Shown here in pieces: positions 7,240-13,384 of a stretch of 64,000 nucleotides of DNA. Position 1 is the stretch's first letter, and each line of letters begins with the position of its first letter. Source of the DNA: an uncultured Sphingomonadaceae bacterium (GTDB taxonomy: Bacteria; Pseudomonadota; Alphaproteobacteria; Sphingomonadales; Sphingomonadaceae); contig CANMVC010000002.1 in NCBI GenBank assembly GCA_947501325.1, positions 124,001 to 188,000 of the forward strand. Direction: 5' to 3'. A program made the translations under genes and the position numbers. The notes under the pieces were generated by a model. That model was given only the letters and a program-made list of their open reading frames with translations, had not been told where the DNA came from and did not search any database.

Positions 7240-7505
7240 GACGGTTTCCCACAAATATCAAGCGCATCTATTGCGTTCATATTCCTCAATTTCTGGTTAA
7301 GATTACCTGATTTAGGGGATTTAGAGGGTTGCGGGGCGTCGTCAGATCGACTAGTGGCAACGCAAATAACGATACAAATTGTATTGGCATTTCAGTTACG
7401 AGTTCAAAAACTCACACGTCGGTTAGCGAGGTTTCGCCCACCGGCGTTTTTTGCGTTGAAGGTTTTTAGGCCGATTTTGGCCGTTTTGGAAGAAAGGAAG
7501 ACGCC

Positions 7506-8960
7506 ATGTTTGATAAGTTAAGCGTTCGGCTCGGTGGCGTCTTTGACAAACTGCGGGGTCGTGGCGCTCTTAAGGAAGAAGATGTTCGCGGCGCGATGCG
7601 CGAAGTGCGTATTGCCCTGCTGGAAGCCGATGTTGCACTTCCGGTTGTAAAAGATTTCGTTGAAAAGGTTACTGAACAAGCGGTTGGTCAATCGGTTCTG
7701 AAATCCATCACGCCAGGTCAACAGGTCGTGAAAATCGTCAATGACGGTCTGGCCGATATGCTGGGCGCAGAGGTTAGCGGCCTGGAGCTGGCCGTTACGC
7801 CGCCAGCTATCATCATGATGGTCGGTTTGCAGGGATCGGGTAAGACCACCACCACGGCAAAAATTGCCAAACGCCTTAAAGACAAAGAGAATAAGAAGGT
7901 CATGATGGCCTCGCTCGACGTCAATCGTCCTGCCGCGCAAGAACAGCTAGCAGTGCTTGGCGAACAGATCAGCGCCGCGACCCTGCCAATTGTTGAGGGC
8001 CAGCAACCGGTTGAGATTGCCAAACGCGCGTTGCAGGCTGCGAAACTACAGGGTTTCGATGTTCTGATGCTCGATACCGCAGGTCGTCTGCATGTCGATC
8101 AGCAGCTTATGGACGAGATGAAGGCGGTCGCCGATGTCTCTAAACCTCAGGAAACCTTGCTGGTTGTCGATGCTCTGACTGGTCAGGATGCCGTCAATGT
8201 CGCGTCCAACTTCTCCGAGCAGGTTGATCTCAGCGGTGTGATCCTCACCCGGATGGACGGCGATGCGCGCGGTGGTGCGGCGCTCTCGATGCGGGCGGTC
8301 ACCGGCAAGCCGATTAAATTTGTTGGCGTTGGCGAGAAGATTGATGCGCTTGAAGAATTTCATCCTGAACGGGTAGCCGGTCGGATCCTGGGCATGGGTG
8401 ATGTCGTTAGCCTTGTCGAGAAAGCGGCGCAGGTCGTTGACAAGGAAGAGTCCGAGGCGCTGGCCGAAAAAATGGCCAAGGGTCAGTTTGACCTCAATGA
8501 TTTGCGGTCGCAATTGCGTCAGATGACCAAAATGGGCGGCCTCGGGGCGCTGGCCTCGATGATGCCGGGCATGAAAAAGGCCAAGGCCGCCATGGCGGGT
8601 GGCGCGATGGACGACAAGGTTCTGGTGCGCATGGATGCTATTATCGGTTCGATGACCAAGGAAGAGCGCGTGCGCCCCGGCCTGCTCAATGCGAAGCGCA
8701 AGGTGCGTGTAGCAAAGGGCTCCGGTACGACAGTGCAGGACGTCAATAAGCTCCTGAAAATGCATCAGGAAATGTCCAAGGCGATGAAAAAGATCAAGAA
8801 AATGGGCGGCATGAAGGGCTTGATGTCGATGTTTGGCGGAGGCGGCGGTGCTGCTGGTGCAGGCATGGGCGGGCAAGGGGGCGGAATGCCCGGACTGCCG
8901 GACATGTCTCCAGGCGGATTGCCACCTGATCTTGCAAATTTGTTGAATAAGAAGAAATAG
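7506..8960 (+). CDS. ffh: Signal recognition particle protein Ffh
   Basis: GTPase of the bacterial SRP, which binds signal sequences and 4.5S RNA. The 484 residues have an N domain (1-90), a G domain with P-loop GLQGSGKT at 107-114 and a DTAGRLHVD motif, then a Met-rich M domain (about 300-440) with the [11 protein letters not shown] stretch. The C-terminal 30 residues are Gly/Met/Pro-rich. GGAAG is well placed before the ATG at 7506. It begins the rightward run into rpsP, rimM, trmD and rplS, a common order in Proteobacteria. No 4.5S RNA gene is visible nearby. The 266 bases upstream are non-coding and must hold its promoter. Confidence 0.96.
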
Positions 8961-9003
8961 TTTTAGAAATTACGTTTATTATATTGTTTTAGAAAGGTTT
9001 ATT

Positions 9004-9549
9004 ATGTCAGTAGCAATGAGAATGGCCCGTGGCGGCTCCAAGAAACGTCCTTATTACAAGATCGTGATCGCGGATGTCCGCGCTCCACGGGACGGCAAAT
9101 TTATCGAACGTATCGGCAGCTACAACCCGCTGCTCGCCAAAGATGACGAAAAGCGTGTAGTTCTGGACGTTGATCGCGCGAAGCATTGGTTGAGCGTCGG
9201 TGCGCAGCCAAGTGATCGTGTTGCGCGTTTTCTGGACGCTGCCGGCGTTTTGAAGCGCGAAGCGCGTAACAACCCGAACAAGGCCAAGCCAGGTGAAAAA
9301 GCCACCGAGCGTTTGGAAGAGAAAGCTGAAAAAGCGGCTGCAGCAGAAGAAGCGGCTAAAGAAGCAGCTGCCGCTCCTGTAGAAGAAGCGCCAGCTGAAA
9401 CACCAGCAGAAGAAACACCGGCCGCTGAAGAAGCTGCTCCTGAAGCGCCAGCGGAAGATGTTAAAGCCGAAGAACCACCTGCAGAAGAAGCGAAATCTGA
9501 AGAAGCGCCTGCTGAAGACAAGGCTGCCGAAGAAAAGTCCGAGGGCTAA
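9004..9549 (+). CDS. rpsP: 30S ribosomal protein S16 with long acidic tail
   Basis: Ribosomal protein S16 of the small subunit. The conserved core ([18 protein letters not shown] onward, to about residue 85) is followed by about 95 residues made almost only of Ala, Glu, Pro and Lys. This makes 181 residues, against about 80-90 in E. coli. Extended S16 proteins with Ala/Glu-rich tails are usual in Alphaproteobacteria, though this one is at the long end. The ATG at 9004 follows AGAAAGG; ATGs at codons 5 and 7 are alternatives nearer to the usual M-x-R-x-R start. The tail looks intrinsically disordered. It lies 43 bases after ffh in an AT-rich gap that may hold an extra promoter, and 3 bases before rimM. 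Confidence 0.95.
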
Positions 9550-9552
9550 TCC

Positions 9553-10041
9553 TTGGCTGAAGTTGATCCGGACACGTCTGTCCCCCTTGCCGTCATTATT
9601 GGCGCGCACGGGGTGACGGGCGAGGTCCGGCTCAAGCTGTTCTGCGAGACTTTGGACAGTCTCAAACAGCACAAGAGTTTCAACGGCGGAAAACTGACGC
9701 TGAAATCCGTGAAGCCCCACAAAATGGGCGCGATTGCACGGATTGCCGAAATTACCGACCGCAATGGCGCAGAAGCCGCCCGGGGGACAGAATTAACGGT
9801 CCCGCGTGCCGCCTTGCCGCCACTCGATGAAGACGAATTTTATCATATCGACATTATCGGCCTGCGCTGTGTCTCGGACAATGGTGAAGAGTTAGGCAAA
9901 ATATTCGCCATTTATGAGTTTGGTGCTGGCGATGTCATCGAAATAGAGCGCGCCAGCGGCAAGAAATTCATGGTACCTGTGAGTGCGATCGATATGCGCA
10001 ATGATCCGGCCATTGTGCTGTCGGATTTTGTCGAACCATGA
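9553..10041 (+). CDS. rimM: 16S rRNA processing protein RimM
   Basis: Assembly factor for the 30S head that binds S19 and helps mature 16S rRNA. The 162 residues show the N-terminal RimM barrel (VIIGAHGVTGEVRLK) and a C-terminal PRC-barrel (DEFYHIDIIGL to about residue 160). The start appears to be TTG at 9553, with GAGG in the last codons of rpsP as ribosome-binding site. I see no ATG or GTG that keeps the domain whole. It sits 3 bases after rpsP and its stop overlaps the next small gene by four bases. Confidence 0.93.
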   Translation: MAEVDPDTSVPLAVIIGAHGVTGEVRLKLFCETLDSLKQHKSFNGGKLTLKSVKPHKMGAIARIAEITDRNGAEAARGTELTVPRAALPPLDEDEFYHIDIIGLRCVSDNGEELGKIFAIYEFGAGDVIEIERASGKKFMVPVSAIDMRNDPAIVLSDFVEP

Positions 10042-10328
10042 CCGGACCGATATTTTTCATCATCCTGATCATTGCTTTGGCAGCATTTCCGGCCTTTGCA
10101 GGTTGGAAGTTTAGTCAAAACAAAGATCAATTTGTCCGCATGGCCAGCACGATAGTCGCAGGGCAAATGATCGTTACGCCGGGAATTATATTAATCGCCT
10201 TTTCCGAGGATCGGGCAGGTGACGAAAGCCCCATGCAAACGATGATAATATATGCGGCCATGGCGCTGGTTATTTCGATCATGACCTTTGCGATTCTTGA
10301 GATCAGAAAAACGCAGCAGGACAAATGA
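10038..10328 (+). CDS. Small hypothetical membrane protein between rimM and trmD
   Basis: A 96-residue protein I do not recognise. It has three likely membrane segments: about 4-24, 38-55 and 69-86. The first loop is basic ([10 protein letters not shown]), the second loop acidic ([10 protein letters not shown]), and the tail charged. It overlaps rimM by four bases (ATGA) and trmD by four bases at its end, so it is fully embedded in the ribosomal operon and probably translated by coupling. In most proteobacteria rimM is followed directly by trmD, so this is an added gene. No cofactor or catalytic motif is visible. The overlaps make it very likely to be real. Confidence 0.7.
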
Positions 10329-11179
10329 CCTTCACCGCCCAAATCTTGACCCTCTATCCCGAAATGTTCCCGGGGCCGCTTGGTACGTCGCTGGCGGGCA
10401 GGGCGCTGGAAGAAGGCAAATGGGCCTGCAACCCGATCCAGATGCGGGACTTTGCCACCGACAAGCACAAATCAGTCGATGATACGCCGGCAGGTGGCGG
10501 TGCTGGCATGGTTTTGCGGGCTGACGTCATGGCGTCAGCGGTGGATTATGCGATGGAGAGGATGGATAAGATAATTTCTGATCAAAAATCCGTTCGTTCT
10601 GAGCCTGTCGAAGGACGGTTGCCGGCTGAGGGCATGGCTTCGACAAGCTCAGCCAGAACGGATTTAGGGGGAAGCATTGCCCCCATCCTCGCGATGACTC
10701 CGCGCGGAAAGCCGCTGACGCAGGCGCGTGTGCGGGATATTTCCGCTGGGCCAGGCGTCACCATCCTATGCGGTCGTTTTGAAGGATTTGACGAGCGGAT
10801 TTTCGATGCGCGGCCGATTGAACAAGTCTCGATTGGCGATTATATTCTTTCCGGCGGAGAAATGGGCGCTTTGGTGCTTTTAGACGCTTGCATTCGCCTG
10901 CTTCCCGGGGTAATGGGCGCGTCTTCTAGCGGAGATGACGAGAGTTTCGAAACCGGACTTTTGGAATATCCGCAATATACCCGGCCTCAGAAATGGGAAG
11001 GGCGTATTATCCCTGAAGTCTTGCGATCGGGGGATCATGCGAAAATAGCTGCTTGGCGGAAACAAAGGGCAGAGGAAGATACACGGCTAAGGCGGCCCGA
11101 TTTATGGGAGCATCACAGGGATGCTCCGGATCAGTCGCCCTCTGGTGCGCGAGGACAGAAAAAGGAAGATCGGTCATGA
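10325..11179 (+). CDS. trmD: tRNA (guanine-N1)-methyltransferase TrmD with in-frame insert
   Basis: Methylates G37 of tRNAs, preventing +1 frameshifting, with a trefoil-knot SAM site. Of the 284 residues, the core matches Trm[14 protein letters not shown], the AGGGAGMV loop, [31 protein letters not shown] and [11 protein letters not shown]. coli TrmD is 255. The excess is largely one insert at about residues 82-117, just before the strand leading into the SAM-binding knot. Residues 88-114 are encoded by an 80-base palindromic repeat. At the position of the E. coli catalytic Asp169 (EDSF) this protein reads ESF (Glu206). The ATGA overlap with rplS shows that the frame is kept to the end. Probably functional, since TrmD is essential in most bacteria. 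Confidence 0.93.
10586..10665. repeat. Palindromic repeat element inside trmD
   Basis: An 80-base imperfect inverted repeat. The left arm starts AAATCCGTTC and continues GTTCTGAGCCTGTCGAAG. The reverse complement of the right arm starts with the same AAATCCGTTC, then TGGCTGAGCTTGTCGAAG. The CTGAGCxTGTCGAAG core is, from general knowledge, a widely dispersed intergenic repeat in sphingomonads. Here it is read in frame through both arms (residues 88-114 of TrmD), with no stop codon. I found no second copy in this window. Confidence 0.8.
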
Positions 11180-11607
11180 ACCTGATCCAGACACTTGAGA
11201 AAGAAGCTGTAGAAGCATTTGCAGCCTCTAAAGAAATACCGGAATTTCGCGCTGGCGACACGCTGCGCATTGGTGTTCGCGTCGTTGAAGGCGAACGCGT
11301 TCGTACCCAGAATTTTGAAGGTGTGTGCATTGCACGGACCAATCGCGGCATGGGCTCCAACTTCACCGTTAGAAAGATTTCTTTCGGCGAAGGCGTTGAG
11401 CGTGTGTTCCCGCTATACTCCCCTAACATCGAAAGCATTACCGTGGTTCGCCGTGGTGTTGTTCGTCGTGCGAAGCTTTACTATCTGCGCGGCCGTACAG
11501 GTAAACGGGCTCGTATTGCGGAACGCCGCTTGAACCAGCCTAAAGATGCTGTAGCGACAACCAAACCGGCAGAAAAGCCAGCTGCAAAGGAAGCAGAAGC
11601 GAAATAA
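11176..11607 (+). CDS. rplS: 50S ribosomal protein L19
   Basis: Ribosomal protein L19 at the 30S/50S interface. It has 143 residues from the ATG at 11176, which overlaps the trmD stop as ATGA. A longer reading from 11053 would overlap trmD by 127 bases and has no homology reason. Core motifs are [36 protein letters not shown] and [18 protein letters not shown] short Lys/Ala/Glu tail (about residues 120-143) follows, milder than that of S16. It is the last gene of the operon, before a clear terminator. Confidence 0.96.
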
Positions 11608-11630
11608 GACACGCTTCATAACCAATTCCA

Positions 11631-11668
11631 AACAGCCGGTTTTCCAAAGGGATAACCGGCTGTTTTCA
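11631..11668 (+). terminator. Terminator after rplS
   Basis: Perfect 11-base arms AACAGCCGGTT and AACCGGCTGTT separated by 12 bases, followed by TTTC. It closes the ffh/rpsP-rplS operon 24 bases after the rplS stop. Confidence 0.8.
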
Positions 11669-11690
11669 TATTCAGTACAGGAAAAGTTTC

Positions 11691-12716
11691 ATGGGTTACA
11701 AAGTTGCAGTTGTGGGCGCGACCGGAAATGTCGGGCGCGAAATGCTGACCATCCTTGCCGAGCGCGAATTTCCAATTGACGAGATCGCCGCTGTAGCATC
11801 GTCGCGGTCTCACGGGACCGAAGTCGAGCTGGGTGATACGGGCAAGATGCTCAAAGTTCAGAATATCGAGCATTTTGACTTTGCTGGCTGGGACATGGCT
11901 CTATTTGCTGCCGGTTCTGGCCCGACCAAGGAATATGCACCCAAGGCGGCGGCTGCAGGCTGTGTTGTGATCGATAACAGCTCGCTCTATCGCATGGACC
12001 CTGACGTGCCGCTGATCGTTCCCGAAGTGAACCCCGAAGCCATTGCTGGCTATACGAAGCGCAATATTATCGCCAACCCCAATTGCTCGACGGCGCAGAT
12101 GGTTGTGGCCCTCAAGCCGCTGCATGATGCCGCTACGATCAAGCGCGTGGTCGTATCGACCTATCAGTCTGTTTCCGGTGCTGGCAAAAGCGGCATGGAT
12201 GAACTGTTCGAACAGTCCCGTGCGATTTTTGTTGGTGATCCCAAGGAAAACCACGTTTTTACCAAGCAGATTGCCTTCAACGTCATCCCGCATATCGACG
12301 TGTTCCTGGATGATGGTTCGACCAAGGAAGAGTGGAAAATGGTCGTCGAGACCAAGAAAATTCTCGACCCCAAGATCAAACTGACCGCGACCTGCGTCCG
12401 CGTGCCGGTTTTCGTAGGCCACAGTGAAGCGATCCATATCGAGTTCGAGAATGAAATCTCGGCCAAGAAAGCACAGGAAATCCTCCGCGAGGCACCGGGC
12501 ATCATGCTGGTCGATAAGCGGGAGGATGGCGGCTATACCACCCCTGTTGAAAGCGCTGGCGACAGCGCCACCTATGTCAGCCGCGTGCGTGAAGATCCGA
12601 CGGTGGAAAACGGCCTGATCATCTGGTGCGTGTCCGATAACCTGCGCAAAGGCGCGGCGCTCAACGCGGTGCAGATTGCGGAGCTTTTGGGGCGCAAGCA
12701 TTTGCAAAAAGGGTAA
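11691..12716 (+). CDS. asd: Aspartate-semialdehyde dehydrogenase
   Basis: Reduces aspartyl phosphate to aspartate-4-semialdehyde, the branch point to lysine/DAP, threonine and methionine. It has 341 residues, with the NADP-binding GATGNVG at 9-15 and the catalytic Cys132 in NPNCSTAQMV. The VPVFVGHSEAIHIEFE segment contributes the later active-site His. This is the common bacterial type. Its product also serves as co-substrate of the carboxynorspermidine/carboxyspermidine synthase encoded at 37.5-38.8 kb, and it feeds the pathway of DapF. AGGAAA is placed before the ATG at 11691. It follows the rplS terminator, so it needs its own promoter within about 20-80 bases. The next gene starts 14 bases later. 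Confidence 0.96.
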   Translation: MGYKVAVVGATGNVGREMLTILAEREFPIDEIAAVASSRSHGTEVELGDTGKMLKVQNIEHFDFAGWDMALFAAGSGPTKEYAPKAAAAGCVVIDNSSLYRMDPDVPLIVPEVNPEAIAGYTKRNIIANPNCSTAQMVVALKPLHDAATIKRVVVSTYQSVSGAGKSGMDELFEQSRAIFVGDPKENHVFTKQIAFNVIPHIDVFLDDGSTKEEWKMVVETKKILDPKIKLTATCVRVPVFVGHSEAIHIEFENEISAKKAQEILREAPGIMLVDKREDGGYTTPVESAGDSATYVSRVREDPTVENGLIIWCVSDNLRKGAALNAVQIAELLGRKHLQKG

Positions 12717-12730
12717 ATTTCCCGCAAGAC

Positions 12731-13384
12731 ATGCCGATGACATTAGAAGCAGACGTATATTGGTCGTTCCGATCGCCCTATAGCTATCTCGCAACACGGC
12801 GCTATGTCGCGCTGACGCGGGAATATGATCTCACCATCAACCAGCGTTTTGTGTATCCGCTTGCGATCCGCGATCCCGATTTCTTTGAGAAAAACCATCC
12901 CAACTGGTTGGCCTATACGTTTCGCGATATCTTCCGCGTGGCGCAGTTTATGGATATCCCGATGGCACCGCCCAATCCCGATCCGATTGTGCAGGATATT
13001 GCCACCCGCAAAATTGCCGAAGATCAGCCGCATATCTTTTTGCTCACACGCATGGGGCAGGCGGCATCCCGGCGCGGCAAGGGGCTCGAATTTGCCGATG
13101 AAGTCTCGCGTCTTATCTGGGGCGGGACGCAGGGTTGGAATGAGGGTGATCATCTGGAGCAGGCTACCACGCGCGCAGGGCTTGATCTGGCCGAGCTGAA
13201 AGCCGAAGCCGAGGCGCGCCCAGAGGAGTTGGACAAGGAAATTGCGGGTAACCAGAACGCTCTGGAAGCCGCTGGCCACTGGGGCGTGCCGACTTTGGTG
13301 TTTGAAGGTGAGCCATTTTTTGGACAGGACCGGATTGATCTGGCGGTCTGGCGGATGAAGCAAAAGGGATTGGCCAAGCGTTAG
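12731..13384 (+). CDS. DsbA-family / 2-hydroxychromene-2-carboxylate isomerase-like protein
   Basis: A 217-residue thioredoxin-fold protein of the HCCA isomerase/GST-kappa branch. The N-terminus reads WSFRSPYSYLATRR, with Ser15 where DsbA proteins carry the CxxC. Such enzymes use glutathione to isomerise hydroxychromene carboxylates in naphthalene-type degradation, or act as kappa GSTs. The C-terminal GVPTLVFEGEPFFGQDR gives the cis-Pro loop (GVP) and the family's G-Q-D-R segment. No aromatic-degradation genes are near, so the physiological substrate is unknown. It lies 14 bases after asd and may be cotranscribed. An ATG two codons downstream is an alternative start. Confidence 0.8.
   Translation: MPMTLEADVYWSFRSPYSYLATRRYVALTREYDLTINQRFVYPLAIRDPDFFEKNHPNWLAYTFRDIFRVAQFMDIPMAPPNPDPIVQDIATRKIAEDQPHIFLLTRMGQAASRRGKGLEFADEVSRLIWGGTQGWNEGDHLEQATTRAGLDLAELKAEAEARPEELDKEIAGNQNALEAAGHWGVPTLVFEGEPFFGQDRIDLAVWRMKQKGLAKR

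Follow-up and report, generated by a model that had tools for sequence, protein, structure and literature searches.

A dispersed palindromic repeat is read in frame within trmD of a Sphingomonadaceae bacterium, in a loop apparently reused by different repeats

The trmD gene of this genome carries a palindromic repeat that is read in frame inside an otherwise normal coding sequence. The repeat belongs to a dispersed family, given the working name family A, that consists of two inverted half-units. In all likelihood, a copy of this non-autonomous, REP-like family entered trmD in this lineage and persists at a loop that tolerates extra length. As judged from sequence comparison, the same position of TrmD appears to be a recurrent landing site for clearly different palindromic repeats, and loops of the isoleucyl- and valyl-tRNA synthetases seem to behave like it. 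The features concerned are listed below by their positions in the window, the whole 64-kb stretch of DNA that was analysed.

10325–11179, plus strand: trmD, tRNA (guanosine(37)-N1)-methyltransferase, 284 aa, with in-frame insert (open reading frame, NCBIfam, Foldseek)
10568–10672, plus strand: stretch missing in insert-free relatives, ends approximate, net +36 aa (an insert-free TrmD query matches only 10325–10567 and 10673–11176)
10586–10613, plus strand: left half-unit of family A, with the core GAGCCTGTCGAAG at 10601–10613
10614–10637, no strand: spacer between the half-units
10638–10665, minus strand: right half-unit of family A, inverted, with the core at 10638–10650 on the minus strand
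11176–11607, plus strand: next open reading frame, overlapping trmD by ATGA at 11176–11179 (list of open reading frames)

The imperfect 80-base inverted repeat reported at 10586–10665 in the initial annotation is real. Its arms (10586–10613 and 10638–10665) are 28 nt each, 86% complementary and 24 nt apart, and when the 168-nt insert region was shuffled 200 times by mononucleotides, no inverted repeat as good arose. The same stretch has a strong predicted RNA fold (z = -5.66), matched by none of 200 dinucleotide shuffles. Stop-free read-through and the ATGA overlap, both claimed earlier, were borne out: the frame from 10325 to 11179 is open, and its 284-aa product passes two NCBIfam models for TrmD with the insert included, namely NF000648 (284.2 against a cut-off of 220) and TIGR00088 (238.1 against a cut-off of 195). 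The top Foldseek match is 3ief_A, itself a TrmD (E 2.1e-20, TM 0.51/0.63, rmsd 9.5). trmD is an essential gene, and the frame that follows it is one which we take to be rplS. A 16-residue peptide is encoded within the repeat, and the length and frame of the insert keep the gene open. Residues 88–114, originally given as the added segment, correspond to the repeat proper and are smaller than the total extra stretch, which amounts to a net 36 aa (284 aa here, 248 aa in insert-free relatives). About 25 nt before the palindrome and 7–13 nt after it are also extra relative to insert-free relatives, which entry of the repeat by itself would not account for.

Genome-wide, the family A core GAGCNTGTCGAAG occurs in 67 copies (34 and 33 on the two strands), compared with one match for the reversed control pattern. 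When cores within 75 bp are joined, these resolve into 44 sites; the arms are thus not confined to trmD, with 43 sites elsewhere, and the earlier assignment to a dispersed repeat class holds. Each half-unit consists of a conserved loop of 13 nt, TGAGCYTGTCGAA, closed by a short stem that covaries. Among 65 distinct half-units, stem position 2 pairs in 59 (shuffled mean 29.6, maximum 40) through CG, GC and AT pairs, and positions 3 and 4 pair in 57 and 54 (shuffled maxima 41 and 47). Position 1 hardly varies and is uninformative, as it pairs in 63 half-units and the shuffled maximum is also 63. Given its many copies and covarying stem, family A is a structured, dispersed hairpin repeat that is often paired; it is REP-like in both its copy number and the compensatory changes of its half-units. 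In the window, the only exact matches to the core are the two in the trmD repeat, and six matches with two mismatches are at chance level. The copies were tabulated in 39 rows representing 40 of the 44 sites: 16 had no spanning open reading frame of at least 90 aa, and three of the ten spanning frames scanned with Pfam gave a family match flanking or around an internal copy. In each of trmD, ileS and valS, the two cores of the paired copy start at a distance of 37 bases from each other, a spacing that fixes the frame EPVE/STSS; other pairs in the genome vary, 36 bases being common.

The trmD insert is present or absent by lineage. Across the 32 members of the genus (G000–G031, with G000 being this genome), 13 have an insert, 13 lack one and six are unreadable due to contig ends (G018, G022, G026, G029), no match (G004) or a weak match (G008). 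The insert is missing from the nearest relatives, G011, G017 and G019. With these three, this genome forms a clade with a support of 0.99 in a tree built from 12 flanking genes of 27 genomes; its exact place inside the four-genome clade has a support of 0.29. Proteins of the insert-free clade read ..DHAL..PDAPILAM.. or nearly so, and since this form also occurs in other genera, the insert-free gene is presumably ancestral. Family A has 67 cores here and 4–14 in the three sisters. The wider alignment that had been proposed for Sphingomonadales agrees: the distance between two fixed motifs is 83 residues here and 44–47 in 73 of 80 named loci, so the insert is no conserved feature of the order. 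Six other named loci have inserts of varied sequence (L070, L084, L085, L087, L095, L102), and L103 is unresolved. Together, these comparisons support the earlier proposal of a repeat mobilised into an essential gene insofar as they indicate lineage-specific, in-frame capture; presence and absence, along with copy number, point to mobilisation. Entry was probably by transposition or a similar event. In some drafts of the genus (G022, G026, G029; loci L150, L142, L143, L146), contigs stop within or beside the trmD insert, and the G026 trmD fragment passes into unrelated sequence at residue 80, probably through a misjoin or another event.

The same data bear on whether the insert is instead an old insert-bearing trmD allele of the genus, which reached this genome by short-tract recombination or descent, while the other allele was retained or restored in relatives without the insert. 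The linker before the arm is 33 nt in seven A-type alleles of the genus (G000, G002, G005, G010, G015, G023, G025), and a similar linker of 36 nt is present in G054 of another genus. This equality gives a hint that the insert was inherited from a common source and did not arise afresh here, and because of it we retain some, low, probability for short-tract exchange of an insert-bearing allele. In addition, all readable insert-bearing members of the genus have ER(M/I) or RM before the insert; against this, the insert-free G014 already has AMER there, so the likeness is partly non-specific. On either side of the insert, the DNA is most similar to that of the insert-free clade of this genome, so that an exchanged tract would need to measure about 120 bp; a long import from an insert-bearing clade was rejected on the same grounds. 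Likewise, family A is amplified in this genome and insert-free alleles keep the family-wide ..PDAPILAM.. form. We therefore consider an old allele unlikely and favor entry of a family A copy in this lineage.

To place the insert in a broader context, an insert-free TrmD query was compared with 129 genomes with a completeness of 90 or more, drawn evenly from 91 genera of the family; 128 of them matched. Inserts are found at exactly this position in 17 of the 128 genomes and 12 of the 91 genera, and six genera (g1, g3, g15, g16, g56, g212) contain both insert-bearing and insert-free members. The DNA of all 17 inserts was checked. Twelve have palindromes matched by at most one of 200 shuffles, and the other five (G035, G054, G057, G266, G313) have weak ones, with 12–33 of 200 shuffles as good. 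Within the genus, the palindrome of the G023 trmD insert was equalled by 5 of 200 shuffles. Given these shuffle counts, the repeat origin of these five inserts and that of G023 rests on likeness. Among the named loci, the palindrome is weak in L070 (17 of 200 shuffles as good) and moderate in L087 (4 of 200); L084 and G329 are one genome with the same insert.

The inserts at this position differ in type. Type A is CTGAGCCTGTCGAAG, type B/C is CCCCTCCC..GGGAGGGG, and type E, found in G307, is CCTCCCCGG..CCGGGGAGG. Type D (TCTCGAGCGCAGTCGAGA or near) occurs in trmD of G001, G003 and G016 and, in degenerate form, G007, followed in the same gene by A-like units; it is also seen in the named loci L102 and L085. 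These D cases lie outside the 17 genomes of the family survey. Not all of these types need be independent of one another: A and D have CCGTTCGTC ends in common, and B, C and E are all palindromes of G/C runs. For this reason we count at least three clearly different types rather than five independent ones. Beyond the family, one of 135 matched genomes of the class (G139) splits here, and its insert is not palindromic (73 of 200 shuffles as good); generality across the class was rejected on this basis. Among the other class genomes, G204 has a C-terminal match only, G098 matches on two contigs, and G110 and G138 give longer matches but have 28 and 22 residues here.

The number of family A cores in a genome is associated with the insert. 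Of 15 genomes with 20 or more cores, 13 carry an insert of some type in trmD, compared with 2 of 14 with fewer (p 1.5e-4, kinship ignored). For A-type inserts, the corresponding values are 9 of 15 and 1 of 14 (p 0.005, kinship ignored). Genomes with an A-type insert have 24–123 cores, except G054 (11), and the insert-free genomes searched have 0–14, except G031 (50) and G052 (72), two cases that count against the favored explanation. Neither this genome nor its insert-free clade has the D pattern, which does occur in the clade with D in trmD.

At the protein level, the insert codons appear to change nearly without constraint. In six A-type alleles (G000, G002, G005, G010, G023, G025), pN/pS is 0.87 in the insert blocks with linker and 0.11 in 60 downstream codons. 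The pS itself is lower in the insert blocks of these alleles (0.21 versus 0.48 downstream), as expected either of young copies or of constraint at the DNA level. An AlphaFold model of TrmD built from 44 aligned sequences (mean pLDDT 70.4, pTM 0.65, confidence being modest elsewhere too) has a helix at residues 66–91 and then coil up to a strand at 121–130, with pLDDT below 50 at residues 103–115. The insert is thus modelled as a helix extension plus a low-confidence loop, just ahead of the strand that presumably forms the SAM knot. This is in line with the earlier suggestion of a tolerated loop. On the TrmD chain 9ue5_A, the insert falls between residues 77 and 81. A dispersed hairpin repeat would have entered trmD in the loop that leads from a helix to the first strand of the half that binds SAM, with a length and frame that leave the gene open. 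Its peptide is predicted to lengthen the helix end and add a flexible loop. Near-neutral change and recurrence suggest that trmD would survive this because the loop is tolerant of length; tolerance rather than benefit, and normal TrmD activity, seem the likely outcome.

Comparable insertions were identified in other genes. Besides trmD, this genome has A in ileS, C at one valS site and A at another, and A in a gene for a phage-type terminase large subunit (L193:595-2031), between its two domains. The sisters G011, G017 and G019 have none of family A at the ileS and valS places where this genome has it. The first valS site, read in 27 of 29 genomes, is filled in six: C in this genome, A in G007 and G031, a weak D-like repeat in G052 (20 of 200 shuffles as good), the CGTCATTCC type in G054 and a C-like repeat in G057. 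The second, read in all 29, is filled in three, with A in this genome, a weak A in G007 (8 of 200) and C in G031. This genome and G031 (L230, L232) thus carry the same two valS types in swapped order, C/A and A/C. The ileS loop contains A (G000, G025), B/C (G021, G017), D (G016; weakly G052), the GGTCCCCCTCCCC type (G003, G005, G028), another in G035 and the CGTCATCCC type (G031). The shuffle test covered 15 of 29 ileS loops, G023 being without a match. Palindromes were weak in G052 and G057 (7 and 17 of 200 shuffles as good), and neither the G007 insert (199 of 200) nor the insert-free control G011 (153 of 200) is palindromic. A peptide search of 12 genomes gave, among the matches listed, A in glyS (G007, G025, G028), pheT (G054), sufC (G010, G025) and carA (G007):

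L289, L303, L304, L308, L296, L306 and L291: loci with in-frame family A copies in glyS, pheT, sufC and carA

Copies in glyS of three genomes each lie directly before ITIGNA, and those in sufC of two genomes are at the same site. Twenty stretches were taken from the matches listed, and two long-frame G005 matches were left out. Nine of the 20 frames have no Pfam match (L290, L292, L293, L295, L299, L300, L301, L302, L307), the repeat is upstream of the first start codon in three (L297, L298, L305), and in L294 (murB) it lies in an N-terminal extension.

Five of the eight genes with internal, family-confirmed A copies, among the matches listed, encode tRNA enzymes. This excess is only suggestive because few genes were sampled, trmD was the starting point and not itself a find, and frames without a family match were left out. 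A bolder reading, which we regard as possible though doubtful, is that a handful of tRNA-enzyme loops in Sphingomonadaceae (TrmD, IleRS, two in ValRS, GlyRS beta, PheRS beta) act as genuine hot spots, refilled repeatedly by whichever palindromic repeats are active, through mover preference or selected loop growth. If so, in-frame repeats would be a standing route for gaining and swapping peptide loops in these enzymes. Growth of the loops may itself have been selected, with the extra residues usefully changing TrmD or the synthetases, as the repeated filling of the same loops by different repeats and the share of tRNA enzymes would suggest. This is very unlikely given that insert peptides of different types share little sequence, pN/pS is near 1, most relatives lack inserts and the gene sample is small. 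Also very unlikely is retention of the hairpin for a function as RNA or DNA, for example in processing the mRNA or adjusting the downstream rplS, with the peptide as a by-product. The strong RNA fold and the low pS of the insert would fit such a role, and REPs have been proposed as RNA elements (available text of PMC3733652); against it, the insert is missing from 13 of 26 readable members of the genus and 111 of 128 genomes of the family, similar repeats occupy loops of unrelated proteins, and young copies also predict low pS. An assembly artefact is scarcely credible: assemblies fail at repeats, and G022, G026 and G029 have contig ends within or next to this region, but the frame is open, the site is placed 134 kb into a contig of 1.33 Mb, and inserts occur at the same codon position in many genomes, including one-contig assemblies (G010, G023, G025, G246).

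Translated REPs are already known, including in tRNA synthetases of sphingomonads. The available text of a survey of GTAG and CGTC REPs (Di Nocera et al. 2013, PMC3733652) describes short palindromes scattered between genes, mostly paired and sometimes wholly inside open reading frames, names tRNA synthetases of E. litoralis and S. alaskensis as intragenic targets, and reports different REPs at about the same recB site in two Xanthomonas. The main text of that survey does not name trmD, and no paper on repeats in TrmD was found in the literature searched. The kind of event is therefore known, and what is new is that different repeats have come to occupy the same loops again and again; compared with the cases in the survey text, many genomes and several repeat types use one loop here. 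CGTC-type REPs, which are described there as having no dedicated transposase, have an 8–9-bp stem and a 4–5-nt loop, whereas in family A the covarying stem measures 4 bp and the loop 13 nt. They are also defined by an unpaired CGTC end; CGTC is present in many family A copies, but within the stem foot. In the available text of PMC10969869, Rickettsia RPEs are about 150 bp long, form ten families and have nearly half of their copies in open reading frames. Family A resembles them as a palindromic repeat in frame within unrelated housekeeping genes, being in frame in trmD, ileS, valS and the terminase gene of this genome, and differs from them in being about 80 bp long and in having 4 of 44 sites inside family-matched genes, with three sites left out. 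Protein-coding palindromes, which the initial annotation linked to Rickettsia, are indeed described for RPEs but are not confined to that genus, as the sphingomonad tRNA synthetases show (PMC3733652, available text).

RAYT-mobilised GTAG REPs are like family A in being dispersed, inverted pairs of short hairpins, and unlike it in their linkage to a transposase; they are mainly intergenic, as family A may also be. This genome has no match to PF01797 (Y1_Tnp), which was matched in 11 of the 33 genomes searched, and none of the searched repeats is near six Y1_Tnp loci of relatives. A RAYT was accordingly rejected as the mover. The element is presumably non-autonomous. No target-site duplication was demonstrated at the trmD insert.

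These loops provide a natural repeated insertion experiment in essential enzymes, with one loop, varied inserts and close relatives without them. With such a system, one can test if translated repeats alter function or are just tolerated as junk, and if tRNA enzymes are targeted by repeats. The insertions also account for unusual loops in TrmD, IleRS and ValRS from these bacteria, as well as for breaks of some draft assemblies at these places.

Two further observations concern the neighborhood of the insert. An Rfam search of 7300–13000 gave two matches (E up to 1), both below gathering scores, and a known structured RNA was rejected. One of them is a weak ffh RNA match at 7401–7453 on the plus strand (26.7 bits against a gathering score of 35, E 0.069), which lies some 50 bases upstream of the open reading frame at 7506. 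Rfam gave no signal at the 3' part of trmD, where synonymous sites are unusually conserved. Among 25 genomes of the genus, the top codon has a frequency of 0.80–1.00 per 10-codon block at 10889–11110, with one 10-residue block at 1.00, compared with 0.66–0.74 at 10769–10858. These codons may contain an overlapping signal ahead of the next gene. Likewise, in 77 of the 80 named loci, the top codon in the block GRTIPEVLRS reaches 0.92, compared with 0.68–0.81 in neighboring blocks.
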